Shown: piece by piece, positions 4,473-38,081 of the stretch
How positions within the stretch are numbered: position 1 is the first letter of the stretch
Layout of the letters: every line of letters begins with the position of its first letter
Source of the DNA: Ideonella livida
GTDB lineage: Bacteria; Pseudomonadota; Gammaproteobacteria; Burkholderiales; Burkholderiaceae_C
NCBI RefSeq assembly: GCF_010499455.1
Contig: NZ_JAAGOH010000003.1
Coordinates: 186,001 to 250,000, forward strand
DNA length: 64,000 nucleotides
Direction: 5' to 3'
Made by a program: the position numbers and the translations under genes
The notes under the pieces: generated by a model
What the model saw: only the letters and a program-made list of their open reading frames with translations
Told to the model about the DNA's origin: nothing
The model's database searches: none

Positions 4473-5387
4473 ATGAAAATACAGGCACTCACCGCCCTGG
4501 TGGCCGCGGTGGAAGAGGGCAGCCTGCGGGCTGCCGCCCGTCGGGTGGGCCTCTCCCAGCCGGCCCTGAGCAAGCTCATGCGCGAGCTGGAGCAGGAGTT
4601 GGCCGCCCCGGTGCTCACGCGCTCCACCACCGGCGTGCTGCCCACCGCCCAGGGCAAGGTGCTGTACGAACGGGCCACCCGGGCGCTGCGCGAGCTGGCC
4701 AGCGCCACCGACGAGATCGCCCAGCTGGGCGGCACCATGGTGGGCGAGCTGCGCCTGGGGGCCGTACCGCTGGCGGTGATGCTGCTGATCCCCGAGGCGG
4801 TGCGCACCTTCAGCCGCGAGTTCCAGGGCGTGCACCTGCATGTGCGCGAGGAGCTCTACATCGAGCAGCTGATGAACCTGCGGCGTGCCGAGGTGGACAT
4901 CGCCATCGGCCCGGTGCCCGAGCACCTGCCACCCGGCGAATTCCACATGGAGGAACTGATGCCGGTGGAGATGGTGGTGGTGGTGCGCCGGGGCAGCCCG
5001 CTGGCCCAGGCCCGCTCGCTGGAAGCCCTGCGCAACGCGCGTTGGGTGTTCACCAGCCTGGGCGGCGTCTCCGGCTATGCGCGCAAGCTGTTTGAGCACC
5101 ATGGCCTGCCGCCTCCGGCCGCGGGCGCCACCGTCAACTCCACCCTGGGCCTGCTGTCCCTGGTGGGCAGCGGAGACTTTGTGGGCCTTATGCCGGCGCC
5201 CTTGCTGGCCCACCCGGCCGCCCGCCTGTTTTTGGACGTACCGCCCCTGGCCGAAGGGCCGCTGCCCCTGTCAGTCAGCGCCATCACCCGGGCCGATCTG
5301 CACCTCAAGCCCGTGGTGCGGCACTTTCTGGCGCATCTGCACCGCGCGGCGCACCACATCCAGCACGGCGGCCTGGGCGGGGCCTGA
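4473..5387 (+). CDS. LysR-family regulator, divergent from the TRAP/gallate operon
   Basis: 304-residue DNA-binding activator. The N-terminal winged helix-turn-helix covers residues 1-60 (LTALVAAVEEGSLRAAARRVGLSQPALSKLMRELE); the rest is the periplasmic-binding-like effector domain (VGELRLGAVPLAVMLLIPEAV onward). The ATG at 4473 gives the standard LysR N-terminus; the longer reading from 4410 would run through the operator at 4448-4464. By position it should control the dctQ-dctM-dctP-galA operon, probably responding to gallate or a related acid. GalR of Pseudomonas plays such a role, but identity with it is not established here. Confidence 0.9.
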   Translation: MKIQALTALVAAVEEGSLRAAARRVGLSQPALSKLMRELEQELAAPVLTRSTTGVLPTAQGKVLYERATRALRELASATDEIAQLGGTMVGELRLGAVPLAVMLLIPEAVRTFSREFQGVHLHVREELYIEQLMNLRRAEVDIAIGPVPEHLPPGEFHMEELMPVEMVVVVRRGSPLAQARSLEALRNARWVFTSLGGVSGYARKLFEHHGLPPPAAGATVNSTLGLLSLVGSGDFVGLMPAPLLAHPAARLFLDVPPLAEGPLPLSVSAITRADLHLKPVVRHFLAHLHRAAHHIQHGGLGGA

Positions 5388-7515: not shown

Positions 7516-8475
7516 ATGCCCGAGACGCCCCCGCTCCCCCCCCCCCACGGCTTTGCCTTCACCGACCAGGCCAGTTTCCTCAAGGCGCCCCGCGACGAAT
7601 CCGCCGGCCTCAAGCCCTTCGGCCTGGCCGGCTTGTGCTGGGACGGCTGCGTGACCAACCGACCTGGGGCGCGCTTCGGCCCCCGTGCCATCCGGGCCGC
7701 CAGCCACATGCTGTGCGACGGCATCCACCCCCATTTCAACGTCAGCCCGCTGCAGCACCTGACCGACCTGGGCGACCTGCCCCTGCCCAACACCAGTCTG
7801 GAGGCCATGCGTGCAGCCCTGGCCGCCCAGCTGCCCGCGCTGCTGGACCAGCGCCACATGGTGTGGCTGGGCGGGGACCACTCCGTCACCTTGCCGCTGC
7901 TGAGGGCGCTCAAGGTCCGGCATGGCCGGCCGCTGGCGGTCATCCATTTCGATGCCCACTGCGACACCTGGGAGGACCACTTCGGCGAACCCAGCGGCCA
8001 CGGCACCTGGGTCTATGAGGCCTTTGTGGAGGGCCTGGTGGAGCCGGCGTGTTTCACCCAGCTGGGCATCCGCTCGTCTGGCGAGCGCGCAGCACGCGAG
8101 TACGTGCGCGACCAGGGCGGCCAGATCTTCACCGCCCGCGACCTGCGCGGGCTGGAGAGCCCCGCCCAGCTCGCCGCCGTGATGGACGCCATCCGCCAGC
8201 GCCAGGCCGCGCAGGACCACCCGCCGGTCTACCTCAGCCTGGACATCGACTGCCTGGACCCCGCCTTCGCCCCGGGCACCGGCACGCCAGAGCCCGGTGG
8301 CATGAGCAGCAACCAGGTGCTGAGCCTGCTGGAGGGCCTGGCCGACCTGCCTTTTGTCGGCATGGACTGCGTGGAAGTGGCGCCGCCTTATGACCATGCT
8401 GAGATGACGGCCAATGCCGCCGCGCATTTCGTCTGGACCTATCTCAGCGGACAGTTGGCCAAGCGCAAAGACTGA
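7516..8475 (+). CDS. speB: Agmatinase/ureohydrolase family protein
   Basis: 319 residues, the usual agmatinase length. Binuclear Mn motifs are intact: GGDHS (119-123, His122), HFDAHCD (Asp146, His148, Asp150) and SLDIDCLDPAFAPGTGTPEP (Asp243, Asp245). Such enzymes hydrolyse a guanidino group to urea, agmatine to putrescine in the best-known case; guanidinobutyrate or guanidinopropionate are equally possible because substrate choice is not readable here. Codons 7-11 lie in an 11-base run of C (7536-7546). A LysR gene is divergent 83 bases away. Confidence 0.85.
   Translation: MPETPPLPPPHGFAFTDQASFLKAPRDESAGLKPFGLAGLCWDGCVTNRPGARFGPRAIRAASHMLCDGIHPHFNVSPLQHLTDLGDLPLPNTSLEAMRAALAAQLPALLDQRHMVWLGGDHSVTLPLLRALKVRHGRPLAVIHFDAHCDTWEDHFGEPSGHGTWVYEAFVEGLVEPACFTQLGIRSSGERAAREYVRDQGGQIFTARDLRGLESPAQLAAVMDAIRQRQAAQDHPPVYLSLDIDCLDPAFAPGTGTPEPGGMSSNQVLSLLEGLADLPFVGMDCVEVAPPYDHAEMTANAAAHFVWTYLSGQLAKRKD
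7536..7546. repeat. 11-base poly-C tract inside the 5' end of the ureohydrolase gene
   Basis: Eleven consecutive C bases begin 20 bases after the ATG at 7516 and encode part of a Pro-rich N-terminus. A one-base slip would abolish the protein, so the tract could mutate at high rate or could be a sequencing-error hotspot; as given, the frame is open. Confidence 0.85.
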
Positions 8476-8605
8476 GAGCGCCCGCCAAGCTCCCCGGACG
8501 GGGAGAAGTGCCCCTCAAGAGCCGAACGGTTCCGCCGATAGGCCCTTGGGGGCGCCAGTCCGTGGACGCTCCGGCTGCGCAGCCCCCCTGCGCAAGGAGC
8601 GCCAC

Positions 8606-10060
8606 TTGGCCGACCTGTCCAGCACCCTGCAGCAGTTCATTCCCCACGGCTTCTGCCTGTCGTGGGAGCCCCGGCTCGTGGCCCTGCACCTCATCTCTGA
8701 TGGGGTGACGGCGCTGGCCTACGCCACCATACCGTTCATGCTGATCAAGCTGGTGCGCGCGCGCAGCGACCTGCAGTTCAGCTGGATGTTCGTGCTCTTT
8801 GGCGCGTTCATCCTGGCCTGCGGGGCCACCCATGCCATGTCCATCTGGACGCTATGGCACCCCGACTACCTGGCCGCAGGTCTGGTCAAGGCGCTCACCG
8901 CCCTGGTGTCGGTGGGCACGGCGGCGGTGCTGTGGCCCCTGATCCCGCGGGCCATCGCCCTGCCGGGCCCGGCCCAGTGGGAGGCCGTGCACCAGGACCT
9001 GCGCCGCCAGATCAACGACCGCGAAGCCGCGGAGCAGGAAGTGCGCCGGCTGAATGCCGAGCTGGAGGTCCGCGTCGCCGCCCGCACGGCCGAGCTGCAG
9101 GAGGCCCATGACCGCCTGAGCGCCCTGCATGCCGAGCTGGAGCAGCGGGTGCGCGACCGCACCCAGGAGCTGGAACAGGCCCAGGCGGCGCTGGTGGCCA
9201 CCGCCCGGCAGGCCGGCATGGCCGAGGTGGCCACCAACGTGCTCCACAACGTGGGCAACGTCCTCAACAGCGTGAACGTCTCGGTCGGCCTCATGGGGCA
9301 GCAGCTGCGGCAGTCGCGGCTGGGCGGCCTGGGCCGCACGGTGGGCCTGCTGGCCGAGCACCGTGCCGACCTGGGCGCCTTCATGGGCCAGGACCCACGC
9401 GGTCAGATGCTGCCCGACTACCTGGCCCGGCTGGACACCACCTTGCAGGACGAGCAGCGCGCGCTGCAGCACGAGCTGGAGGGCGTGGCCAAGAGCCTGG
9501 ACCACCTCAAGGATGTTGTGGCCACCCAGCAGACCTACGCCGGCCACCGCCAGATGCTGGCCCCGGTCCGCGTGGACGAGCTGGTGCAGGACGCCCTGCG
9601 CATGAACGCCGGCGCCCTCTCGCGCCATCAGGTGCGGGTGGAGCTGGCGCTGCAGGAGCTGCCGCCCCGCCTGCTGGACCGCCACCGCGTGCTCCAGATC
9701 CTGGTCAACCTGATCAGCAACGCCAAGCAGGCCATGGACGCCAAGGAGGCGGGGGGGCACACCCTGAAACTGAGCGCCCACCAGGACGAGGAGGGTACCC
9801 TGCATCTGGCCGTGCAGGACCAGGGCGACGGCATCGCGCCGGAAAACCTCACCCGCATCTTCCACCACGGCTTCACCACCCGCGCCCAGGGCCACGGCTT
9901 TGGCCTGCACAGCTGCGTGCTGGCCGCCCGCGAGATGGGCGGCGAGCTGCGGGTGCACAGCGACGGCCCCGGCCATGGCGCTACGTTCACCCTGGTGCTG
10001 CCCAGGGTCGCGCCACCCGCAGATCCCTCCGGCGCCACCCCGTCCCCGTCTGCGGCTTGA
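8606..10060 (+). CDS. Sensor histidine kinase with ethylene-receptor-like membrane domain
   Basis: 484 residues from TTG 8606, chosen because AAGGAG lies 6 bases upstream and the protein then begins just before the membrane domain. Residues about 25-118 form three transmembrane helices that match the ethylene-binding domain of plant ETR1, with Asp32, Tyr39, Ile42, Pro43, Ile69, Cys72 and His76 at exactly the spacing of ETR1 Asp25, Tyr32, Ile35, Pro36, Ile62, Cys65 and His69 (the last two bind copper in ETR1). A coiled coil (about 126-200) leads to a phosphoacceptor region MAEVATNVLHNVGNVLNSVN with His214, then an ATPase domain (NLISNAKQAMDA, DQGDGIAPENL, GHGFGLH). The next gene, a REC-PAS-GGDEF protein, starts 11 bases later and is the likely partner. 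Ethylene as ligand is inference. Confidence 0.9.
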   Translation: MADLSSTLQQFIPHGFCLSWEPRLVALHLISDGVTALAYATIPFMLIKLVRARSDLQFSWMFVLFGAFILACGATHAMSIWTLWHPDYLAAGLVKALTALVSVGTAAVLWPLIPRAIALPGPAQWEAVHQDLRRQINDREAAEQEVRRLNAELEVRVAARTAELQEAHDRLSALHAELEQRVRDRTQELEQAQAALVATARQAGMAEVATNVLHNVGNVLNSVNVSVGLMGQQLRQSRLGGLGRTVGLLAEHRADLGAFMGQDPRGQMLPDYLARLDTTLQDEQRALQHELEGVAKSLDHLKDVVATQQTYAGHRQMLAPVRVDELVQDALRMNAGALSRHQVRVELALQELPPRLLDRHRVLQILVNLISNAKQAMDAKEAGGHTLKLSAHQDEEGTLHLAVQDQGDGIAPENLTRIFHHGFTTRAQGHGFGLHSCVLAAREMGGELRVHSDGPGHGATFTLVLPRVAPPADPSGATPSPSAA

Positions 10061-10070
10061 GGAGCCCGCC

Positions 10071-11696
10071 ATGCACGCCCCCAAGTCCGAGACGCCGGCC
10101 CTGCCCCCCGTCCTGCGCGTGCTGCTGGTGGACGACATGCCCGCCATCCACGAGGACTTCCGCAAGATCCTGCTGCCGGCCCCACCGTCGGGCAGCGCCC
10201 CCGCCGCCGTCCCCGGCAGCCCGGTGGTGGACGGGCTGGACACCCTGGACGCCCTGGAGGCCTCACTCTTTGCCGCGCCCACCGGCGCCGCCCCTGCCGC
10301 CCCGGCGGCGGCGCCCAAACTGAGACCGGCAACCTTTCTGCTGGACTCCGCCTACCAGGGTCAGGAGGCGCTGCAGAAGGTCGAGACCGCGGTGCAGGAA
10401 GGCCGCCCCTACGCCCTGGCCTTCGTCGACATGCGCATGCCCCCGGGCTGGGACGGTGTGGAGACCCTGGAGCACCTCTGGCGCGTGGACCCGGCCCTGC
10501 AGGTGGTCATCTGCACCGCCTACTCCGACTACGCCTGGGAGACGGTGTTGGAGCGGCTGCAGGCCCAGGACCGGCTCATCATCCTCAAGAAGCCCTTTGA
10601 CCCCATCGAGGTCTCCCAGCTGGCCCATACCCTGTGCGCCAAGTGGCTGGCGGCGGCCGCGGTGGCGCGCCACACCCGTGAGCTGGAGGAACAGGTCGCC
10701 CTGCGGACCGCCGAGCTGCAGCAGGCCAACGCCCAGTTGCAGGACGAGCTGGCCGAGCGGGTCCGGCGTGAGGCGGACCTGCAGCTGGCCGCCAGCGTCT
10801 TCCGCAACGCCCTCAACGGCATCGTGGTCACCGACGAGCGCAGCTGCATCCTGTCGGTCAACCCGGCCTTCACCCAGCTCACCGGCTACGAGGCCCACGA
10901 GGCTGTCGGTCAACGCATGAGCCTGCTCAGCTCGGACCACCATCCCGCCGGCTACTACCGGGCCCACTGGCAGGCCCTGCTGGCCCATGGGCACTGGAGC
11001 GGCGAGCTGTGGAACCGCCGCAAGGACGGCAGCCTGTTCTGCGAGTGGCTGAGCCTGTCCCGGGTGCCGGCGGCCCCTGGCCAGCCCGACCGCTATGTCG
11101 GCATCATGGCCGACGTGACCGAGCGCAGGCGCCTGGACGAGCATTTCCGCCACCTGGCGCTGCACGACCCCCTGACCGGGCTGGCCAACCGGGTGCGCCT
11201 GGAGGCTTGCGTGGCCGAGGCGCTGACCCTGGCGCAGGCCGGTGCCGAAGGCACGACGCGCCAGATGGCCCTGCTGTTCATTGACCTGGACCGATTCAAG
11301 CCCATCAACGACGACCTGGGCCATGAGGCCGGCGACGCCGTGCTGCGGGTGGTGGCCGAGCGCCTGACCGGCATCATCCGCCAGGGCGACACCGCCGCCC
11401 GGCTGGGCGGTGACGAGTTTGTGCTGCTGCTGCGCGACCTGCGCGGTGTGGACGATGCCCTGCAGGCCGCCCAGCGCACCTTGGCCAGCCTGCTGCAGCC
11501 CATCTGGCTAGACCGCCTGGTGGGTCCCCCCTTGCAGATCGGTGCCTCCATCGGCGTGGCCTGCGGCCCGCTGCACGGTACCGACGCCGCCACCCTGCTG
11601 CGCCACGCCGACGTGGCCATGTACGCCGCCAAGGCCGCCGGCCGGGAACAGGTGGTGCTGTTCAGCCCGGTCGAGGATCCGGCCACCCACATCTGA
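10071..11696 (+). CDS. Response regulator with PAS and GGDEF domains (diguanylate cyclase)
   Basis: 541 residues. A receiver domain starts at about 15 (LLVDD) with phospho-acceptor Asp120 (FVDMRMP) and LKKPFDP near 172-178; an Ala/Pro-rich insertion of about 50 residues (36-85) splits its first helix from the next strand. A coiled coil (200-235) and PAS domain (about 237-352) follow, then GGDEF (357-530) with the intact active-site GGDEF at 446-450 and an inhibitory-site RQGD at 437-440, five residues upstream as expected. It should make c-di-GMP from two GTP and be product-inhibited. GAGGAG overlaps the stop of the preceding kinase gene, so the two are an operon. Confidence 0.93.
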   Translation: MHAPKSETPALPPVLRVLLVDDMPAIHEDFRKILLPAPPSGSAPAAVPGSPVVDGLDTLDALEASLFAAPTGAAPAAPAAAPKLRPATFLLDSAYQGQEALQKVETAVQEGRPYALAFVDMRMPPGWDGVETLEHLWRVDPALQVVICTAYSDYAWETVLERLQAQDRLIILKKPFDPIEVSQLAHTLCAKWLAAAAVARHTRELEEQVALRTAELQQANAQLQDELAERVRREADLQLAASVFRNALNGIVVTDERSCILSVNPAFTQLTGYEAHEAVGQRMSLLSSDHHPAGYYRAHWQALLAHGHWSGELWNRRKDGSLFCEWLSLSRVPAAPGQPDRYVGIMADVTERRRLDEHFRHLALHDPLTGLANRVRLEACVAEALTLAQAGAEGTTRQMALLFIDLDRFKPINDDLGHEAGDAVLRVVAERLTGIIRQGDTAARLGGDEFVLLLRDLRGVDDALQAAQRTLASLLQPIWLDRLVGPPLQIGASIGVACGPLHGTDAATLLRHADVAMYAAKAAGREQVVLFSPVEDPATHI

Positions 11697-13238: not shown

Positions 13239-15212
13239 TCAGCGGATGTTGAAGCTCACATCCGAGAGGTCGAAGAACACGTTGCTGCTGCACTTGACCT
13301 TGATGCGGGCGTTGGCCAGCGCGGCATCGGGCAGCTTGACCTTGGCCTCGCCGTTGTTGGGCACGGCTTCGGCCAGCAGGCGGCGGGCCTTGGCGCCGTG
13401 GGCGGACATGAGCCACACGTCCACCGCGGTGCAGGACACGGGCGCCACATCGGTGCCGGCCACGTCCCAGCGCACGGTCATGCGGCTGCCACGGGTGAAC
13501 TCGCCGCCGGCGTTGGGCGACTTGATCTTGAACGGGCCGGCATTGGCGGTCACGTTCAGGGCGTAGTCGGTCCAGCCCACACCGCCGGCCATGGGGGCCG
13601 CCTTCTGGTCGCGCACCAGGAAGCGGAAGTGCAGCGTGCGGGTGGTGCTGGGCAGCACCTCGCCCAGGGTCTGGGTGTTGCCGATCAGGTCACTGATCTG
13701 CGGGAACACGCGCACCGGAGAGCTGCCGGGCACAAAGGTGCGGAACAGCGGGGCATTGCCCGTGGGCGCGGTGGGGGTGCCGGCCGGACCCAGGTCGCGC
13801 TGTTCCCACAGGTAGTCCAGCTTGTCGGCGTCCTCGTCGCTGCCCTTGCCCACCAGCTCGAACGGGGTGTTGCGCGGAATGGTCAGGCCCACGGGCGACA
13901 ACACCTTGGCCTTGGGCACGGTGTTGTCGCCCGCGGTCACCGCCGCACAGCTGCCACCGCTGCCGGCCAGGAAGGCGCGGATCTCGTCCTGGCTGCCGCT
14001 GTGGAACAGGGCGTCGCTGTGCGGTTGCAGGTCGTCGGCGCCGCAGATGCCGGCATAGGCCATGATGGTCGAGCCGCTGCCCGGCTCGTAGGCCACCGAA
14101 GCCACCCGGTTGCCACGGCAGGCGCCGGTGATGCTGTTGAAGGTGTGGTTGGCGCCGAACTGGTGCCCCATCTCATGGGCCACGTAGTCGATGTAGAAGC
14201 CGTCGCCCACCGGCGCGCCCAGGCCGGTCACGCCGCCGGCCTTCCAGTTGGCGCAGACCGCCTGCAGGTAGGCCACACCACCGCCGCCGGTGCTCACCAC
14301 ATGGCCGATGTCGAAGTTGGCGTTGCCGATCACGCTGGCCAGCGTGTTGATGTTCTGGCCCAGCATGGCGCCGCCGTCCTCGTTGGTGTAAGGGTCGGTG
14401 GCGGCATCGGTGTAGATGAGCGACTCGCTGTCCTCGATCAGCTCCAGGCGCACGCCCAGCTCACGCTCATAGACCCCGGAGACGCGGTTGACCAGGCTCA
14501 CCAGCTCGGCCAGCACCACCTCCTTGCGCGGCACAGCCTGCAGGGGGTCGAAGAATCGGGCGTATTCGCCCGTGGTGGCCAAGGCCAGGCGGTAGGTGCG
14601 CAGCCGGGTCTGGCCGGTGGGCGTGGCCTGGGCCTGCAGCGCCTGGCGCATGACACCTGCCGGCGGCTGCAGCACCTGGTCGGCCTGGCGCTGGCGCGGC
14701 AGCAGGTCCTGACGCCAGTAGACCTGGTGCAGACCGGCCTGGGCGTCGCGGCCCGGGTCGATGAACACCCGGCCTTGCGGGGTGAACAACATGGCCTTGA
14801 AACCTTGCGGGCTCCAGTCGATGCGGCCGCGCACCGCCGAGCCGTCGGTGGCCACCGCCTCGAAGGTGCGGATGTCGGGGTGGCGGGCCGCCAGGGCCGG
14901 CGCCATCACGGCCACCGGGGTCAGGTCCACGGTGACCTGACGGCCATCGGGCAGCGGCAGGGTGAGCGTGCCGCGGGTACCGCGGCCGGCCAACACGGCC
15001 TGCAGGGCCGAGGCCTCCCAGCGCACCCAGCGGGCGGCCACCGCGCGCGAGACCTCCGCCTCGCGGCTGGCGGCGACAGCCGGAGCGGCCTGGTCGGTCC
15101 ACAGGGCGGTGGCATGGGCGGGGCTGGCCAGCCAGGCCAGGGCGGCGGCGCAGATCAAGCCGGCGGCATGGCGGCGGGGCGAGGCGTGGACGGTGTGGGC
15201 GCGGGCGGTCAT
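13239..15212 (-). CDS. Secreted zinc metalloprotease, reprolysin-like (M12B-type)
   Basis: 657 residues. A Sec signal (hydrophobic ICAAALAWLASPAHA, about 20-35) precedes a propeptide-like region to about 200 and a metzincin catalytic domain: zinc motif HEMGHQFGANH near residue 315 and a Met-turn STIMAYAGIC about 30 residues later, with Cys residues for disulfides. The part after about 400 is made of beta-sandwich modules (FELVGKGSDEDADKLDYLWEQ; MTVRWDVAGTDVAPV), likely fibronectin/PKD-like accessory domains. It should be an exported protein-degrading enzyme. ATG 15212 has AGAGG nine bases upstream; ATG 15221 is in frame but has this AGAGG abutting it. Confidence 0.9.
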   Translation of the reverse strand: MTARAHTVHASPRRHAAGLICAAALAWLASPAHATALWTDQAAPAVAASREAEVSRAVAARWVRWEASALQAVLAGRGTRGTLTLPLPDGRQVTVDLTPVAVMAPALAARHPDIRTFEAVATDGSAVRGRIDWSPQGFKAMLFTPQGRVFIDPGRDAQAGLHQVYWRQDLLPRQRQADQVLQPPAGVMRQALQAQATPTGQTRLRTYRLALATTGEYARFFDPLQAVPRKEVVLAELVSLVNRVSGVYERELGVRLELIEDSESLIYTDAATDPYTNEDGGAMLGQNINTLASVIGNANFDIGHVVSTGGGGVAYLQAVCANWKAGGVTGLGAPVGDGFYIDYVAHEMGHQFGANHTFNSITGACRGNRVASVAYEPGSGSTIMAYAGICGADDLQPHSDALFHSGSQDEIRAFLAGSGGSCAAVTAGDNTVPKAKVLSPVGLTIPRNTPFELVGKGSDEDADKLDYLWEQRDLGPAGTPTAPTGNAPLFRTFVPGSSPVRVFPQISDLIGNTQTLGEVLPSTTRTLHFRFLVRDQKAAPMAGGVGWTDYALNVTANAGPFKIKSPNAGGEFTRGSRMTVRWDVAGTDVAPVSCTAVDVWLMSAHGAKARRLLAEAVPNNGEAKVKLPDAALANARIKVKCSSNVFFDLSDVSFNIR

Positions 15213-15578
15213 GGAGAGCATCCTCTGAAGGGTGTGGAGGCGCCGCGGGGCGGGGTGGCTGACTGGCTTGCGTCAGGCCCACCGGCGAGGCGAGTCCGCG
15301 AGTCTCTCCGCCGACCGGCCCCGCCGCCGCCGGTGGCGCCGGCCCTGGCGCAGACGGCAGACCGACGGCGCTGCTGGCGCGACAGATCGCCTGCCACCCC
15401 CCACAGGCAAGGGGTGCACCACCGGCCATGCACCAAGCCGGGTGAACCCTGACAGGGTGAACCCGCCCCAAGTTTGATCATGAAAAAAAATGATGAGGCC
15501 ACAAGGAAATTTCTCGTTGGAACGGGTCGATGCGCACTTTCACAATCCGCCGCATCGCAGACGTACACGGAGCCCGGC
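15213..15578. other. Intergenic region between metalloprotease and DUF1445 operon
   Basis: 366 bases without a convincing gene. Most is GC-rich; an A+T-rich patch at about 15472-15515 (TTTGATCATGAAAAAAAATG) is the best place for a promoter of the plus-strand operon. An open frame begins at 15474, but its codons before 15579 do not belong to the DUF1445 family. An inverted repeat at 15446-15458 is listed separately. Confidence 0.6.
15441..15464. promoter_or_regulatory. Inverted and direct repeat upstream of the DUF1445-TRAP-oxoprolinase operon
   Basis: ACCCTG-A-CAGGGT is a perfect palindrome at 15446-15458. It is nested in a direct repeat GGTGAACCC at 15441-15449 and 15456-15464. It lies about 115 bases upstream of the first gene, next to an A+T-rich stretch, and may be an operator. 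No regulator gene is adjacent on this side. Confidence 0.4.
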
Positions 15579-26179: not shown

Positions 26180-28276
26180 ATGTCCCGCCTGCTTTCCGCC
26201 AAAGAACAGCCGCTGTCAAAGATCTTCAGCAGCGACTACCTCTTCACGATTCCGGGCTACCAGCGGCCCTACGCTTGGGGCACCGAACAGGCGGAAGAAC
26301 TTTTGGATGACGTGCTAGCGGCCTCAGCAGCCGCGGGCACGAATCTGCAAGAGGCAGCGCCGTACTTCCTCGGCAGCATCGTGCTCATCCAAAGTGAAGG
26401 CGTTCCAGACGCCACTGTAGTGGACGGGCAACAGCGTTTGACCACGCTCACGCTGCTGCTTTCCGCGATCCGGGCGACGGTGAAAAGCCCCGAGGTGCAG
26501 ATTGGCATCAGTGCTTGCATCTACCAAAAGCCCAACGTCATTCAGAACCTGCCGGCCAGCTACCGCCTGACGCTGCGCGAGCGTGATCAAGCGTTTTTCC
26601 GGCAATACATCCAGCATGAAGGCGGCTTGAGCCAGCTAGAACACATCAGCACCGCGCTGCCGGATGCACAGGCGCGGCTGAAAGCCAACGCTGAACTCTT
26701 CCTAGAACGCCTACAAGACCTTGACGACGCCCAGCGAGTGGAGCTTGTGCAGTTCATCGTGACACGGTGCTTTTTGGTCGTGGTAGCTACGCCAGATCTA
26801 GATTCGGCATACCGCATTTTTGGAGTGCTCAACAGCCGGGGGCTCGACTTGAGTGCCACTGACATTTTGAAAGCGGAAATCACCGGCGCCATCACACAAG
26901 AGCGCCGCGAGGATTACACGCGCCAGTGGGAAGATTTTGAAGAATCGTTGGGCGGCGATGCTTTTGGCGAGCTGTTCAGCCACATCCGCACGGTGTTCCG
27001 CAAGGCCAAATCCAAAGGCACATTGCTCAAAGAGTTCACCGACCATGTGAAGCCCAAGGCCAACCCTGTGGCCTTCATGGACGACGTGCTTATTCCCATG
27101 GCACGCGCCTTCAAGGTCATCCGTGATGAGTCGTTCTCTGCGACTCATCTGGCCGAGGAGGTCAATGACACCCTGGGCTGGCTGAATCGCCTGGAGTTCA
27201 CCGATTGGGTGCCACCAGCGCTGGCCTTTTTCGTCCGACACCACTCTAAACCACCAGCCTTGCTGGCCTTTTTGCGTGATTTGGAACGGCTGGCGTATTC
27301 GATGCTGGCCCGCAAGTCAGGGATCAACGACCGGATTGAGCGCTTTTCATTGCTGACCACCGCCATTGAGGTCGGTGCCGATCTGCATGTAGCCAACGCC
27401 CCGCTGCAGTTGTCCCCGCAAGAGCAGCATGAGACCTACGAGGCGCTCAACGGACCGCTTTACGAGACTCACGCCCCTCGCGTGCTGGCGGTGCTGTTGC
27501 AGCGCCTTGATCAATTGCTGTCGGATCAAGCGGTCAAGTTCAAGCTGGCGAATGTCTCGGTTGAACATGTATTGCCCCAGCAGCCCGCCCCACGCAGCCA
27601 GTGGCTGCAGTGGGTGAGCGACCCCCAAGCCCACCAGTTTTGGGTTCATCGCTTAGGCAACCTCGCCCTGCTGAGCCGAAACAAGAATAGCGCGGCCAGC
27701 AACTTTGAGTTCGACAAGAAAAAGACCGCTTACTTTCAGAAAGGTGGCGTGTGCCTGTTTGCGCTCACCACCCAGGTGCTGACCCATGCGGAGTGGACAG
27801 CAGAGGTCATCGAACAGCGCCAGAAGGCGTTGCTGGCGAAGCTGGAGGCCCACTGGCGCCTGCAAGACCGCCAAAGCCTCGAACAGCACCGCGCCACGCT
27901 GCAAACCCAGGTGGCACTGGGCGGGCATGGCTTGGTGTTCGAACTGCAAAGCTCCAAACTCGGCCTGCATGCGAAAGCCCGCGTCGATGGCACGCAATTC
28001 ACGGTGTTGGCAGGCTCGCTGGCACGAAAAGAGTGGATTGGTGTAGACGGTGGTTACCAATTACACCGACAGACTTTGATCGAAAGCGGACGCTTGCCAT
28101 TGACCCCTGACGGCCAACGCCGCTACTTCACCGAAGACACCGTGTTCAACAGCGCCAGCGCCGCTTCCGCCACCGTGCTGGGCCGATCTGACCGTGGCAC
28201 AACAACGTGGAAACTGCCCAACACCCTGATGAGCTACGGCGACTTGCTGGACAGCGCACCACCTGAACAAGCTTGA
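26180..28276 (+). CDS. GmrSD-like type IV restriction protein (DUF262-DUF1524-DUF4357)
   Basis: 698 residues. DUF262 (about 1-230) has [10 protein letters not shown] (24-33) and [10 protein letters not shown] (81-90), the ParB/sulfiredoxin-like NTP-using site. DUF1524 HNH nuclease (about 430-570) has VEHVLPQ (His463) and [19 protein letters not shown]. The C-terminus (about 590-690) fits DUF4357 ([11 protein letters not shown], then [17 protein letters not shown] ... WKLPN). GmrSD enzymes cut glucosylated or otherwise modified phage DNA. Sample lines are about 50-58% G+C against about 70% around it, and codon use differs (many TTG, TTT, CAA), so it was probably acquired. It stands alone between convergent cytX and thiD. 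No ribosome-binding site is evident at ATG 26180, chosen from the family N-terminus. Confidence 0.88.
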
Positions 28277-31886: not shown

Positions 31887-33530
31887 TCAGCGCCCGGGCG
31901 CGGCCCCCGCCGGCGCGTCCAGCCAGCGCAGCAGGCACAGGTAAAACCCCAGCGGCTCCACCGGTTTGGCAATGAAGTCCTCCATGCCGGCGTCCAGGCA
32001 GGCTTGGCGGTCCTCGCCAAAGGCATTGGCGGTCATGGCGATGATGGGTCGCTGCGGCCAGTCGGGCTGCGACCGCAGCTGACGGGTGCTGGTCAAGCCG
32101 TCCTGCCGCGGCATCTGCATGTCCATCAGCACCAGGGCGTAGTCGTGGCGGCGTGCCATGGCCACGGCCTGCAGGCCGTCCTCGGCCAGATCCACCGTCA
32201 GCCCTGCCAGTTCCAGCAGGGCGCGGGCCACCTCGGCACTCACCGGGTTGTCCTCGGCCAGCAGCAGGCGCTGGCCGGCGTGGCGTTGGCGCAGCCGCTC
32301 GCGCGCGGCCTGCAGGTCGTCCGGCCCAGGCGCCGGCGCGGCCGGCACCGGCGCGGCGGCCTCCACCTCGGCGGTGAACCAGAAGCAGCTGCCCTGGCCC
32401 GGGCGGCTGCGCACGCCGGCCGCGCCCCCCATGCACTCGGCCAACCGTCGGGTGATGGCCAGCCCCAGACCCGTGCCGCCATACTGCCGCGTGGTGCTGG
32501 CGTCGGCCTGGGTGAACTCGCCAAACAGTGCCTCGGCGGCCTGCGGGTCGATGCCAATGCCGCTGTCCTCCACCTCAAAGCGCAGGCGCAGGCGGCCCTC
32601 GGGCAGGGTCGCCTCCACCCCGCCACGCAGGTCGATGTGGCCGCTGGCGGTGAACTTCAGTGCATTGCCGGCCAGGTTGAGCAGGCACTGGCGCAGGCGG
32701 GTGGGGTCGCCACGCAGGCGGGCGGGCAGGCCTGAGCCCTCCACCCGCAAGGCCAGCCCCTTGGCCCGGGCCGACTCGGCCAGCAGGTCGGCCACCCGGT
32801 CCAGCAGGTCCTCGCGCCCGAAGTCCACACATTCCAGGGGGAGCTTGCCGCCCTCCACCCGGGCCAGGTCCAGCACATCGTTGATCACGCCCAGCAAGTG
32901 CTGGGCAGCGCCCTCAATCTTGTTGAGCCGGTCGGCGGCCTGGCCCGGCCCCACCTCTTCGCGCAGCAGGTGGGTCATGCCCAGGATGGCGTTGAGCGGG
33001 GTGCGGATCTCATGGCTCATGTTGGCCAGGAAGCGGCTCTTGGCACGGCTGGCGGCCTCGGCGGCCTCGGCGGCCGCCTGCAGGCTGCGGGTGCGGGCCT
33101 CCACCAGCGCTTCCAGGCGGTCACGCTCGGCGCCCAGGGCCGCGCGCAGCCGCTCGCGCTCAAGCTGGTTGCGGATGCGCTGGCGGGCGATGTCCAGCTG
33201 TATGGGCTTGGTGATGAAGTCCACCGCCCCCAGGGCCAAGCCTTCCTGCTCGGCCTGCGCATCGGCCAGCCCGGTCAGGAAGATGACGGGCACCTCGCAC
33301 AACAGCGGGTCGGCGCGCAGCGCCCTGCAAGTGGCAAAGCCGTCCATGCCCGGCATCATGATGTCCAGCAGGATCAGGGCGGGGGGCGACTGGGTGGCCA
33401 GCCGCAGGCATTCCGGCCCCGAGGTGGCAATGCTCAGGTCGAACTCGCCGGCCAGGGCGCGGCCCAGGGTGTGGAGGTTCTCGGGCACGTCATCGACGAT
33501 GAGCACCGTCTGCGGTGTGGGGACATTCAT
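31887..33530 (-). CDS. Hybrid histidine kinase, REC-HisKA-HATPase-REC
   Basis: 547 residues, no membrane segment. Receiver 1 (7-120) has Asp13/Asp14, acceptor Asp56 (LILLDIMMPGMDG) and Lys108. A coiled coil (about 122-165) leads to HisKA with His173 in NMSHEIRTPLNA, then HATPase (NLAGNALKF, EDSGIGIDP, GGTGLGLAI). Receiver 2 (about 420-540) has AEDN and VLMDMQMPRQDG. Its ATG at 33530 overlaps the stop of the preceding large kinase gene by four bases, so the two are translationally coupled and probably form one phosphorelay, the first kinase feeding receiver 1. Confidence 0.93.
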   Translation of the reverse strand: MNVPTPQTVLIVDDVPENLHTLGRALAGEFDLSIATSGPECLRLATQSPPALILLDIMMPGMDGFATCRALRADPLLCEVPVIFLTGLADAQAEQEGLALGAVDFITKPIQLDIARQRIRNQLERERLRAALGAERDRLEALVEARTRSLQAAAEAAEAASRAKSRFLANMSHEIRTPLNAILGMTHLLREEVGPGQAADRLNKIEGAAQHLLGVINDVLDLARVEGGKLPLECVDFGREDLLDRVADLLAESARAKGLALRVEGSGLPARLRGDPTRLRQCLLNLAGNALKFTASGHIDLRGGVEATLPEGRLRLRFEVEDSGIGIDPQAAEALFGEFTQADASTTRQYGGTGLGLAITRRLAECMGGAAGVRSRPGQGSCFWFTAEVEAAAPVPAAPAPGPDDLQAARERLRQRHAGQRLLLAEDNPVSAEVARALLELAGLTVDLAEDGLQAVAMARRHDYALVLMDMQMPRQDGLTSTRQLRSQPDWPQRPIIAMTANAFGEDRQACLDAGMEDFIAKPVEPLGFYLCLLRWLDAPAGAAPGR

Positions 33531-36500
33531 GGGGGCGGGCTCACGGCATCGGCGGCCCCGGCCTCACGGTCCAGCCGTGCGGCCAGGTCGGCCAGGGGTT
33601 GCAGGGCATCCTCGTAGCGCATGCGGTCCAGGGCCTGGCGCGCCTGCTCCAGTGGCGCGGCCCAGGGGCCGCCTTGACCCTGGCGGACCAGCTGCTCCAG
33701 CGCCTCGACGGCTGCGTATTTGCGCTGGGCCAGCAGCGCCTGCACACCGGGCAGGGCCAGGCGCAGCGCGGCGGCCTGCAGCGGGTCGGGCGGCCGGGCG
33801 GAAGGCCCGCCGTCGGCCGACGGACCGCTGGCCGCCGCGGCCGCACCGGGGTCCGGGGTGGCGGTCCATCGCGCCAGGACCTCATGCAGGCGCTCCAGCG
33901 GCAGCGGTGGGCTGAGCACCTCGGCAAAACCGGCCTGCAAGACCGCGTGGCGGGTGGCGGGCAGCGCATCGGCCACCAAGGCCAGCACCGGCGGGGCGCC
34001 GGGGGCCTGCAGCGCCGGGGGCAGCTGCCCTACCGTGCCGGACAACGCCCACAGCACCACGGCCGGCGCGGCAGCCGCAGGGCCGAGGCCTGACCCTGAC
34101 CCGTCGGCGCAGACCAGCGCCGCGGCGGGCACCGCCCGCGGGCTCAGGCCCAGGGCAGTCAGGCTGGCCAGCAGCAGTTCGCGGGCAGGCCCTTCGTCCT
34201 GGGCCACCAGCACCTCCCCGCGCAACGGGGGCAATGCCGGGGCCGCCAATGCCGGCCGCTGGGCGGGCAGGGGCTGGTCGGCCGGCGCGCAGCGGGCGGT
34301 GAACCAGAAGCGGGCGCCCTGCCCGGGGCGGCTCTCCACCCCGGCCTCGCCTTGCATGGCGCGGGCCAGCCCGCGCACGATGGCCAGGCCCAGTCCGGTG
34401 CCGCCGTGTGGGCGGGTCATGGGATCATCCACCTGCGAGAAGGGCAGGAACAGCCGCGCCTGGGACTGCGCCGCGATGCCCGGCCCGGTGTCGCGCACGC
34501 TGAATTCCAGGCAGCCGTCGCCGCCCAGGGTGCCGGTGGCTCGGGCCGACAGTGTCACTTGGCCGCGGGTCGTGAACTTCAGGGCGTTGGACACCAGGTT
34601 GGCCAACATCTGGCGCAGCTTGCCAGCATCGCCCTGGCAGGCGGGCTCGTCACCCGGTCCGGCCCAGTGCCAGGACAGGGCCAGGCCCTTCTGCTGTGCC
34701 AGGGGCCGGAACAGGGCCGCCACATCGGCCAGCAGCCAGCCGGGCCGGAAGGGCTCGGTCGCCAGCCCGGGCTGTCCGGCCTCGAGTTTGGAATAGTCCA
34801 GCACCTGGTTGACCTGGGCCAGCAGGCCGTGGCCGGCCTCCAGCACCGTACCGGCCCAGCGCACGCGCTGGGCCTCGGACACGTCCGGCCGCATGAGCAG
34901 CTGGGCGGTGCCCAGCATGGCGTTCAGGGGGGTGCGCAGCTCATGGCTCATGGTGGCCAGAAAGCGGCTCTTGGCCTGGCTGGCTGCCTGGGCCGCGGCC
35001 AACGCGGTCTCCAGCGCCTCGCGGGCCATGCGGGCGGCGGTCACATCGCGCGAGAAGCCGATGACCCGGGTGGGCCGCCCCTGCGGGTCGCGCTCCAGGT
35101 AGGCCGAACCTTCCAGCCAGCGCAGGCGGCCATCGGGCAGCACGATGCGGAACACCGGGTCATACACGCCCCGGCCCTCCACCAAGGCCAGGCGACTGGC
35201 CTCCACCACGGGCAAGTCTTCCGGGTGGACCAGGGGCCGCCACAGCGGCACCTCCAGCACGGCCGGGGTGGCGGACGGCGCCGGCAGCCCGTAGAGCTCG
35301 AACATGCGGGCATCCCAGATCAGGCGCTCGGAAGGCAGCTCACGGATCCACACCCCCAGCTGCGCCGCCTCAGCGGCGTGGGCCAGGCGCTCGCGGTTGG
35401 CCTCGGCCTCCCGGCGCGCCTGTTCGGCGGCCTGCTGCTCCTGGCGCTGGCGGCTGATGTCCACCGCCTGCAGCAGCAGGTGGGGCTGCCCGGCCAGCCG
35501 GGTGCGACCCAGGTGGAGCACCAGGCTGCGCACGCCGGGGCTGCCTGCAGGGCCGGGCAGGTCCACCGCCTGCTCTCGCGGCAGCCCATCGGCCAAGGTC
35601 TGACGAGCCAGGGCCTGCAGGTCAGGCGCAGCCAGCAGGGGCAGATCCGACAAGGTGCCATGGGCCCGCCCCATCTGCTGCAAGCCGGCCTCATTGGCCA
35701 GCACCAGCCGGCCCTCACCGTCAAACAGGAGCATGCCGGTGACGGATTCATCAAGCAGCCGGGCGGTGGTGCCCAGCTCAGCGGCCAGGCGTCCGGCCCG
35801 CGCCGAGGCCAGCCGGTGCCGGGTGAACTCGCTGGACAACCAACCACACAGCAGCGCGGCCAGCAACGCCACCTGGGCCAGGGTGGTCAGCCCGGCAGGC
35901 GCTCCCCCCCGGGGGGGCCCGACCTCCACCCGCAGCTGCAGGCCGGGAGCCCGGCGCACCAGGGCAGCCGCGTCCGGGCGCGCGGCAGGCAGCCGGGCCA
36001 GGACCTCCACCTCACCCTGCTCGCGCAGCCAGCCGGCGGGCGGCGCCTCATCGCCCGTGGGCAGCAGCGGTGGGTCCAGGGCCGTGGCGGCTTCGTTCTG
36101 CCAGGCCAGCCGGAAGGGCTGCCCCGGCGGCGCCAGCCAGAGGCGCAGCGGCAGGGTTGCGTCGCGCAGCGGGGGCAGTTCGGCCAGGCCTTCGGGCAGG
36201 TGCAGGATGGCCAGGGCCAGGCCACGGGTGGTCGGCGCCGTGCCGTCCGCAGGGCCGCTGGGGCTGCCGGAGGCCACCGGCAGGAAGTAGGCGATGGCCT
36301 GCCCGCCCTCCACCTTGGGGAACACCGGGCTCCACCCGCCCTGGCCGGTCTGCAGCAGCTGGCGCACCGTGGTGCCGTTGCCCGGGTGCTCGCGCAAGTC
36401 CAGGCCGCGTACCGCTGGCGCCAGGGCGCGGGGAGCCCCCAGCGCCAGGCGGCCCTGGGGCGCCCACTGCAGGGACAGGCCCGGCCCCATGGGCCGCAAC

Positions 36501-38014
36501 AGCTCGGCCGACCAGCCGGCAAAGACCTCGGGCGTGGGGTCGGCCCAGGCCAGCAGCGGCGACATGGCGTGCGGCAGCTGCTCCACCAGCAGCAGGTAGG
36601 TGGACAAGGACTGCAGGCTGGCCTCCACCGTGGCCTGCTGGACCTGGTGGGCGGCCTGCAGACGGTCGTCGCGCCATTGCCAGCCGGCCAGGCCCGCCAA
36701 GAGCAGCACCAGCGTCCCGGTGGCCACGCCCACATGGCGGCTGGTGCTGTCCTGGCGACCCGAAGGGGTGGCGCCCGCCTCTGCCTGCTCCGCCGCCAGC
36801 GGTGGCAGGGCCAGGCGCTGCGGCACCGCGGCGGCGGGCGGCGACGGGGCCGGCCAGGCCGCGGCCTGGGCCGTGGCGGGCAGCGAGCGCGCCCAGTGCA
36901 GGGTCAGCGCCAGCACCCCGGTGGCCTGCAGCGCTTGCAGGAACCAGGGCTGCAGCGCCTCGGCCGGCAGCACGGCGCCGGTGGTGGCCAGCACCGCCAG
37001 CCACAGGCCCAGCATGGTGCGCCAGGCCCTGGCCGGCAGCATGACCGCCAGGGCGTAGGCCAGCAGGCTCAAGAAAGCCAGGGCCACCGCCCCGTTGCGC
37101 CAGATGGAGGTGACGATGGTGAACAGCAGGACCATCAAGGCCAGGCGCAGCGTGGTCTCTCCCGGCCAGCGCCGCAGGGCCAGCAAGACCGCGGCACCCA
37201 GCGGAAAGAACATCAGGCTCAAGGGCGCCACCGGCTGCACAGTGCTGTGGGCCTGCAGCCAGGGGTAGAGCAGGTTGTGCAGGGCCATCATGCCCAGCAC
37301 AAAGCCCCCCAGCCCGGAGGTCAGCGCCAGCCGGTGGTCGCCGGCGGGGTCGCGGGCATGCAGCGACCACTGGTGCGCCCAGCCCATCAGCAGCAGCAGG
37401 AACATGCCGGCGCCGCGGTACATCAGGTGCGCCTCGGGCAGACCGGCGGAGGTGCCGGGCCCGGTGGCGCGCAGCGTGAGCACGGTCAACGCCAGGAGGA
37501 ACACCGGCACCGCCAGACCCAGCACCCACTGCGGGCGCCGGGGCGGCGGCCCCCAGTGGAGCGGCCACCCCCCCCAGGGCCGGCCTGCGGGCGCGCCCGG
37601 GTCGACGCCGTGGCCCAGCACATGCCAAGTCAGGGCCAGCACCGCCGCCAGCGGCACCAGCTGGCGCCAGGGCCGCAGCCCGCCCAGGCTGGCCACCACC
37701 AGCAGCAGCAGCGCCGCCACCCCGGCCAGGGCCAGCAGCGGCCGGCGCAGCTCGGCCAGGCGCTGGCGTCCGCGCCAGGGCAGGCCCAGGGCCGCCACCA
37801 GCGGCAGCAGCACCAGCAGGCCCATGCCCACCGGCAAGGTAGCCATGACCGAGCCGCGGGGGTAGACCACCGCCCGCAACAGGACCGACGCCAGGCTGAA
37901 GGCGATGATGGCCACCATGCTCTGCCCCAGCAGCGCGGCGCGCCCCGCCTCGCCGTTGGGGCTGGGCGTGGCGGGGGCCGCGGGCGGCAGGGGGGCGGAC
38001 GTAGGGTCGGTCAT
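33527..38014 (-). CDS. Very large membrane hybrid sensor histidine kinase with degenerate receiver
   Basis: 1495 residues. About ten hydrophobic segments fill residues 30-380; another at 426-445 starts a periplasmic sensor region to about 705, closed by a segment at 708-725. Two PAS-type domains follow (about 750-870 and 890-1010; the second has DPVFRIVLPDGRLRWLEG), then HisKA with His near 1023 (TMSHELRTPLNAMLG), HATPase (NLVSNALKF, DTGPGIAAQ, GGTGLGLAI) and from about 1265 a receiver-like region in which the expected acceptor Asp is absent (VVLWALSGT). The C-terminal helical part resembles an Hpt domain without a His. The ATG at 38014 follows a GTG at 38017; no ribosome-binding site is clear. 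Confidence 0.88.
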   Translation of the reverse strand: MTDPTSAPLPPAAPATPSPNGEAGRAALLGQSMVAIIAFSLASVLLRAVVYPRGSVMATLPVGMGLLVLLPLVAALGLPWRGRQRLAELRRPLLALAGVAALLLLVVASLGGLRPWRQLVPLAAVLALTWHVLGHGVDPGAPAGRPWGGWPLHWGPPPRRPQWVLGLAVPVFLLALTVLTLRATGPGTSAGLPEAHLMYRGAGMFLLLLMGWAHQWSLHARDPAGDHRLALTSGLGGFVLGMMALHNLLYPWLQAHSTVQPVAPLSLMFFPLGAAVLLALRRWPGETTLRLALMVLLFTIVTSIWRNGAVALAFLSLLAYALAVMLPARAWRTMLGLWLAVLATTGAVLPAEALQPWFLQALQATGVLALTLHWARSLPATAQAAAWPAPSPPAAAVPQRLALPPLAAEQAEAGATPSGRQDSTSRHVGVATGTLVLLLAGLAGWQWRDDRLQAAHQVQQATVEASLQSLSTYLLLVEQLPHAMSPLLAWADPTPEVFAGWSAELLRPMGPGLSLQWAPQGRLALGAPRALAPAVRGLDLREHPGNGTTVRQLLQTGQGGWSPVFPKVEGGQAIAYFLPVASGSPSGPADGTAPTTRGLALAILHLPEGLAELPPLRDATLPLRLWLAPPGQPFRLAWQNEAATALDPPLLPTGDEAPPAGWLREQGEVEVLARLPAARPDAAALVRRAPGLQLRVEVGPPRGGAPAGLTTLAQVALLAALLCGWLSSEFTRHRLASARAGRLAAELGTTARLLDESVTGMLLFDGEGRLVLANEAGLQQMGRAHGTLSDLPLLAAPDLQALARQTLADGLPREQAVDLPGPAGSPGVRSLVLHLGRTRLAGQPHLLLQAVDISRQRQEQQAAEQARREAEANRERLAHAAEAAQLGVWIRELPSERLIWDARMFELYGLPAPSATPAVLEVPLWRPLVHPEDLPVVEASRLALVEGRGVYDPVFRIVLPDGRLRWLEGSAYLERDPQGRPTRVIGFSRDVTAARMAREALETALAAAQAASQAKSRFLATMSHELRTPLNAMLGTAQLLMRPDVSEAQRVRWAGTVLEAGHGLLAQVNQVLDYSKLEAGQPGLATEPFRPGWLLADVAALFRPLAQQKGLALSWHWAGPGDEPACQGDAGKLRQMLANLVSNALKFTTRGQVTLSARATGTLGGDGCLEFSVRDTGPGIAAQSQARLFLPFSQVDDPMTRPHGGTGLGLAIVRGLARAMQGEAGVESRPGQGARFWFTARCAPADQPLPAQRPALAAPALPPLRGEVLVAQDEGPARELLLASLTALGLSPRAVPAAALVCADGSGSGLGPAAAAPAVVLWALSGTVGQLPPALQAPGAPPVLALVADALPATRHAVLQAGFAEVLSPPLPLERLHEVLARWTATPDPGAAAAASGPSADGGPSARPPDPLQAAALRLALPGVQALLAQRKYAAVEALEQLVRQGQGGPWAAPLEQARQALDRMRYEDALQPLADLAARLDREAGAADAVSPPP

Positions 38015-38081
38015 CACGGGCAGGGGGCGCCTGCCCCATGTTGCGACAGAACGGGCCCGCCGGCCAGTGCCCCGCGGTTTC

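Follow-up and report, generated by a model that had tools for sequence, protein, structure and literature searches.

Ethylene binding has been published for AzoEtr1 of Azospirillum and for other receptors (PMC11819568; this and the other papers are cited here for what excerpts of them state). Ethylene inhibits the kinase activity of the plant receptor AtETR1, and the evidence for the same effect in SynEtr1 of Synechocystis is indirect (PMC11819568). In Azospirillum brasilense, ethylene reduces cyclic di-GMP (c-di-GMP) and biofilm, and the authors stated in 2025 that the pathway from AzoEtr1 was unknown (PMC11819568). Here, we describe a 64,000-nucleotide stretch of DNA (the window; contig NZ_JAAGOH010000003.1, positions 186,001 to 250,000) from Ideonella livida, a relative of Sphaerotilus. 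It carries a two-gene unit in which a gene for a histidine kinase with an ethylene-binding domain (EBD) is followed by a gene for a receiver-PAS-GGDEF (REC-PAS-GGDEF) protein, both on the + strand. The ethylene-receptor-like membrane sensor probably controls the c-di-GMP cyclase, and we consider it reasonably likely that the pair is a two-component system through which ethylene alters c-di-GMP. Bacterial EBD kinases are already known; the direct wiring to c-di-GMP is new, and among the papers listed by a literature search, judged by title and the start of the abstract, none reports an EBD system that feeds into a cyclase.

Results and discussion

Recurrence of the pair and a natural fusion

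The preliminary description of this DNA had proposed a route from sensor to c-di-GMP. Support for that route beyond adjacency comes from the occurrence of the pair in three other genomes and from a natural fusion of EBD and cyclase. An EBD kinase with an HNVGN motif and its REC-PAS-GGDEF partner are also found in S. natans (locus L059), Leptothrix sp. C29 (L060, also collected as L038) and S. hippei (L061, also L049), with protein identities to the window of 63-69% for the kinase part, 71-73% for the EBD, 61-65% for the receiver and 56-58% for PAS-GGDEF. When the window was compared with these three loci, and L061 with L059 and L060, DNA homology ran from near the start of the kinase gene to near the end of the cyclase gene (71-91% by stretch), and the flanks had no DNA homology at E 1e-8. 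The pair occupies three chromosomal contexts in four genomes, window included, two of them other than that of the window. A common neighbourhood as the cause of the pairing was rejected from flanking genes and DNA comparisons. Four genes flanking the pair in the window (arginase family, glyoxalase and two LysR) were sought at the loci of six relatives and gave a single LysR match of 34%, at L062. An all-pairs DNA comparison of six loci found unshared flanks except for L059-L060 and L060-L057, the latter with two short common stretches of 66-67% identity.

In an Aquabacterium metagenome-assembled genome (MAG; L062, JAIZVX010000098.1), one open frame encodes EBD-PAS-GGDEF. Its EBD is 74% identical to that of the window and stands beside L061 in the EBD tree with modest support (91/85; the tree has 135 rows on 106 columns, few columns for that many rows). 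Positions 7935-8371 of L062 align with 7935-8371 of L061 at 77.8% DNA identity and 8388-9275 with 9938-10825 at 78.0%; the 1,566 bp that contain the kinase and receiver in the S. hippei operon correspond to 16 bp in L062. In the protein, the two parts meet between the helix after the EBD and the helix before the PAS domain. When the PAS-GGDEF part of L062 was compared with the GGDEF proteins of loci L029-L136, identity was 71.5% to L061, 61% to L059 and L060, 52% to the window and 38% to the next best. Going by these DNA and protein matches, one sensor and its PAS-GGDEF exist both linked through a phosphorelay and joined directly, and loss of the phosphorelay in L062, rather than its insertion in the pairs, is the simpler reading. 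The natural EBD-PAS-GGDEF fusion is strong evidence, the best available, that the cyclase is the target of the EBD message, and it bears most of the weight of the case.

The ethylene-binding domain and the kinase

The kinase gene (8606..10060, +) has a TTG start, encodes 484 aa and ends in a stop codon at 10058-10060; by sequence, a ribosome-binding-site-like AAGGAG (8594..8599, +) lies 6 nt before the TTG. The EBD (residues 24-119; 8675..8962, +) matches Pfam PF25487 ETR1_N at E 2.2e-37 and 127.6 bits (cut-off 27), and a chance match of the motif was rejected at this significance (E 2e-37, rounded). Helices are predicted at 22-52, 58-84 and 88-118 by a model built on a 10-row alignment (block pLDDT 73-83); by plain hydropathy, only the second and third of them exceed the threshold.

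The preliminary description had listed seven ligand residues at a constant offset from those of plant ETR1, and all seven (D32, Y39, I42, P43, I69, C72 and H76) are present in the kinase EBD. We take ETR1 Y32, I35, P36 and I62 to be the counterparts of Y39, I42, P43 and I69, in numbering that comes from that description. The offset of 7 holds against ETR1 D25, C65 and H69 in the numbering excerpted from PMC11819568, and K95 also matches the helix-3 lysine (ETR1 K91, AzoEtr1 K98; PMC11819568). Among 137 collected EBDs, the residue found in the window is kept at D32, C72 and H76 in 134 each, at Y39, I69 and K95 in 131 each, at I42 in 129 and at P43 in 125, and the seven ligand residues are among the most conserved columns. 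All seven are intact in the window EBD and likewise in the remaining six rows of the subclade (own support 97/52; the fork that holds 125 of the other 128 rows has 100/89). The window EBD carries every residue listed as necessary in ETR1, which makes ethylene its putative ligand. EBD-like domains at five loci (L054, L195, L196, L198 and L199) are without Cys72 or His76 and perhaps do not bind copper or ethylene.

Beyond the EBD, a long helix is predicted for residues 122-202 (8969..9211, +), probably a coiled coil. The proposed phospho-acceptor, His214 (9245..9247, +), stands in an LHNVGN H-box and coincides, in the alignment, with the H-box histidine that other EBD kinases have; the HATPase_c domain covers residues 358-467 (9677..10006, +; Pfam E 6.6e-20). 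No Pfam HisKA family matches the kinase at E up to 0.01, the HNVGN H-box being divergent. Across the 10-row alignment, H214, N368/N372, G407/G409, F419 and G429/G431/G433 are invariant and D405 nearly so, which accounts for the H, N, G1, F and G2 boxes. The predicted model (mean pLDDT 76, same alignment) places kinase helices and an ATPase fold after helix 122-202. Its best Foldseek match is ZraS; the rows are kinase-domain structures, and none of the 50 matches listed is an EBD structure. By Pfam, the kinase has no sensor domain above the cut-off besides ETR1_N, with no GAF and no light- or metal-sensing domain. A hybrid or light input as in SynEtr1 was rejected, the kinase having neither GAF nor another sensor.

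The EBD-like domain could instead respond to something other than ethylene (copper status, a different small gas, the state of the membrane) and send that signal to the cyclase; we regard this as improbable. Sphaerotilus and Leptothrix are freshwater organisms, and in that habitat a source of ethylene is not obvious. C72 or H76 is changed in 5 of the 137 EBD rows, so such losses do occur among relatives, and SynEtr1 is bifunctional, for light and ethylene (PMC11819568, PMC5812497). Against a non-ethylene input stand the seven residues kept throughout the subclade, the lack of a light- or metal-sensing Pfam domain in the kinase, and the ethylene binding published for AzoEtr1 and SynEtr1, which have the same seven residues. 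For the copper-sensing route that the preliminary description had offered as an option, we found no positive evidence, copper being the cofactor in known members, though copper genes were not searched for.

The receiver-PAS-GGDEF protein

The second gene (10071..11696, +; 541 aa, ATG start) begins 10 bases after the first ends. The two are adjacent as previously described, the earlier figure of 11 having been counted from the last stop base to the start base. The receiver is of a long type (10113..10655, +, outer limits drawn by eye); it has the acidic pair D21/D22, the proposed phospho-acceptor Asp120 (codon 10428-10430), T149 and K174, and matches PF00072 at E 8e-9. The PAS domain (10815..11123, +) is NifL/MmoS-like by sequence, resembling a NifL-type regulator (2gj3) and 3ewk, which we take to be MmoS; PAS domains of this type presumably bind FAD. 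The GGDEF diguanylate cyclase domain (11157..11651, +) has its I-site RQGD at 11379-11390 (residues 437-440) and its A-site GGDEF at 11406-11420 (residues 446-450), which bears out the earlier description of a REC-PAS-GGDEF gene with intact active and inhibitory sites.

The HNVGN kinase and long receiver as a pair type

A receiver-only search of 299 family genomes gave matches in 15. Outside the EBD pairs, the long receiver directly adjoins an EBD-free HNVGN kinase at 13 of 17 loci, a recurrence that makes the two a repeated, cognate-looking pair type. It supports specificity between kinase and receiver, not cyclase output. The four loci without an HNVGN neighbour are L221 in the I. livida genome itself, L222 in S. 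hippei (G167), L226, which has other kinase genes, and L237 at a contig end. L221 (5486-7858 on contig 30) encodes an orphan REC-PAS-GGDEF-EAL protein, whose receiver is 57% identical to that of the window and may be a second target; no kinase gene was found in the 12 kb around it. L222 is similar, and at L228 a further long receiver is fused to GGDEF-EAL. At L223-L225 and L227-L236, the HNVGN kinase together with a long receiver on a second HATPase kinase forms a possible two-kinase relay.

With a second long-type receiver in its own genome, the EBD kinase could be real and yet have its main partner somewhere other than the neighbouring cyclase, an account that we think quite unlikely. The orphan on contig 30, with no kinase found nearby, would suit it, as would the kinase of P. 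rivuli, which faces a different output. It sits poorly with a tight two-gene unit maintained in different contexts and with the natural EBD-PAS-GGDEF fusion, and a second target of this kind would likewise act on c-di-GMP.

Proposed mechanism and its weak points

In the scheme that we infer for ligand, phosphotransfer, sign and phenotype of an ethylene-to-c-di-GMP system, the three predicted membrane helices would bind ethylene at a Cu(I) held by Cys72 and His76, as judged by residue identity with tested receptors. Binding would alter both the long helix and HNVGN kinase activity, and autophosphorylation of His214 would fall by analogy with ETR1 and bacterial receptors; the proposed sign, in which ethylene lowers kinase activity, is chosen because of the analogy with AtETR1 and SynEtr1. 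Pairing and conservation suggest that the phosphate passes from His214 to Asp120 of the next-door receiver. The phosphorylated receiver would activate the GGDEF cyclase, on which RQGD should confer product inhibition, and the NifL-like PAS domain may add a second input, perhaps redox or oxygen. Ethylene would then lead to less c-di-GMP and favour a dispersed, motile state. The predicted fall of c-di-GMP with ethylene fits the Azospirillum report.

Several points weigh against this interpretation. We found no ethylene-binding, phosphotransfer or c-di-GMP measurement for these proteins, and the sign varies between organisms, with ethylene raising biofilm in Synechocystis and lowering it in Azospirillum (PMC11819568). 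The fusion is known from one MAG contig only. L059 and L060 share approximately 4 kb upstream, and their DNA identity is 90% over 7 kb in all, so they represent a single chromosomal context; their homology likewise stops at the end of the cyclase gene. The S. hippei cyclase is without the I-site arginine pattern. When 399 genomes of the order, a sample evidently without Sphaerotilus and Leptothrix genomes, were searched with the full-length protein at E 1e-60, the two hits were the protein itself and one match to the kinase half alone. At each of the 13 EBD-free loci, a second HATPase kinase carries a long receiver, and the EBD-HNVGN kinase of P. rivuli (L065) has a REC-HATPase protein opposite it; the cyclase is therefore not the usual output of the pair type. 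The single context of L059 and L060 and the kinase output of all 13 non-EBD pairs slightly weaken the argument from conservation.

That the pair is in decay and no longer functions, as its patchy distribution might suggest (any EBD in 3 of 16 genus genomes, the other two of different architecture), is very improbable given open frames, intact catalytic residues and cross-genus protein identities (kinase part 63-69%, receiver 61-65%).

Other outputs of EBD proteins

In the I. livida genome of 5.26 Mb, the window kinase gives the only ETR1_N match at E <= 0.001, and there are 35 GGDEF matches. ETR1_N was found in 3 of 16 genus genomes, in 26 of 397 family genomes (25 above the cut-off) and in 33 of 397 genomes of a phylum sample (31 above it), and many of the EBD relatives are hybrid or multi-PAS kinases. 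The window EBD subclade also contains fusions of the EBD to an MCP signalling domain, one in the second EBD gene of S. natans (L057, 7653-8999 of NZ_FTMZ01000005.1) and one in a MAG (L058, 2566-3675). Both are candidate ethylene chemoreceptors, in which the MCP domain seems to stop early, with profile positions 2-158 of 172 matched. An excerpt of PMC4686702, citing Kim et al. 2007, states that Pseudomonas species show chemotaxis to ethylene, a report that bears on these proteins.

Outside the subclade, EBD-PAS(n)-GGDEF proteins occur at five Nostocales loci, with EAL detected by Pfam in L087, the one tested, and an EBD-PAS-PAS-GGDEF-EAL protein occurs in a proteobacterium (locus L168). REC-GGDEF-EAL genes lie near EBD kinases in Marinobacter mobilis, Saccharospirillum salsuginis and Novosphingobium umbonatum. 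At L176, an EBD-only frame of 143 aa (4882-5313) stands between a REC-GGDEF-EAL gene and an overlapping histidine kinase frame, which could reflect a split receptor or a frameshift. At the cyanobacterial loci L111, L115, L119 and L131, a REC-REC-REC-GGDEF gene lies directly upstream of an EBD kinase.

GGDEF is fused or adjacent to the EBD gene at 8 of 32 phylum loci (L168, L171, L176, L182, L186, L187, L189 and L199), a count that omits the window's own locus, one 26-position fragment and two below-cut-off matches; L182, L187 and L199 seem to represent a single arrangement, and Cys72 is missing from L199. The same holds for 5 of the 27 other genus and family loci (L037, L038, L040, L046 and L049) in addition to the window locus; L055, one of 27 family loci, gave no EBD with the model used. 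Among the 80 named loci, which are the best of 495 by similarity to the window EBD, 18 have GGDEF at the EBD gene, 6 fused and 12 nearby. In a rough control, restricted to the matches listed (150 of 361 for HATPases, 171 of 313 for GGDEFs) in seven genomes picked for their EBD-GGDEF link, 9 of 150 HATPases lie <=3 kb from a GGDEF, 5 of the 9 at EBD loci. A general enrichment of GGDEF beside EBD genes is suggestive only, and the case does not rest on it.

Whether evolution has used the EBD of the Sphaerotilus group as an exchangeable ethylene input for three outputs (a cyclase through a kinase, a cyclase directly and without relay, and a chemoreceptor domain) is in our estimation an even question. 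If it has, the direct fusion would act as a single-polypeptide, gas-gated switch in the membrane from ethylene to c-di-GMP, and the MCP fusion would serve as a chemoreceptor dedicated to ethylene.

Other genes in the window

Elsewhere, the window encodes an M12B reprolysin-like metallopeptidase (13239-15221, -), a GmrSD type IV restriction endonuclease with a C-terminal DUF4357 (26180-28276), and two overlapping genes (31887-33530 and 33527-38017, -) for a hybrid kinase that has two receiver matches and for a PAS histidine kinase of 1496 aa.

Comparison with known systems

Plant ETR1 shares the EBD and the ligand residues with the window kinase (PMC11819568); plant receptors differ in that their signal goes to a ser/thr kinase and for the most part does not use histidine kinase activity. 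PcrK/PcrR of Xanthomonas likewise joins a plant-hormone histidine kinase to a regulator acting on c-di-GMP, but its sensor is a CHASE domain for cytokinin, its regulator degrades c-di-GMP, and no sensor homology is claimed (PMC7700396, excerpt). SynEtr1/UirS-Slr1213 of Synechocystis is, like the window pair, an EBD histidine kinase with a two-component regulator (PMC11819568, PMC5812497, PMC6682694); unlike the window kinase, SynEtr1 also senses light and acts through Slr1213 and a small RNA.

AzoEtr1/AzoRR-etr1 shares with the window pair an N-terminal EBD with the seven residues, a histidine kinase and a regulator gene directly downstream (PMC11819568). AzoEtr1 differs in having a PAS domain, and AzoRR-etr1 is a lone receiver of 135 aa without a recognisable output (PMC11819568), so A. 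brasilense is without the direct wiring of the window pair. In the window pair, by contrast, the regulator itself is the cyclase, and the kinase has the HNVGN H-box. Since a relay-free natural version also exists, direct control of c-di-GMP by a bacterial ethylene receptor becomes a question answerable with two genes in a laboratory strain. Such work might yield a one-polypeptide ethylene biosensor and may reveal how bacteria convert a plant gas signal into a lifestyle choice. The relay-free fusion and the testable question that it poses for Azospirillum set this pair above ordinary EBD kinases.

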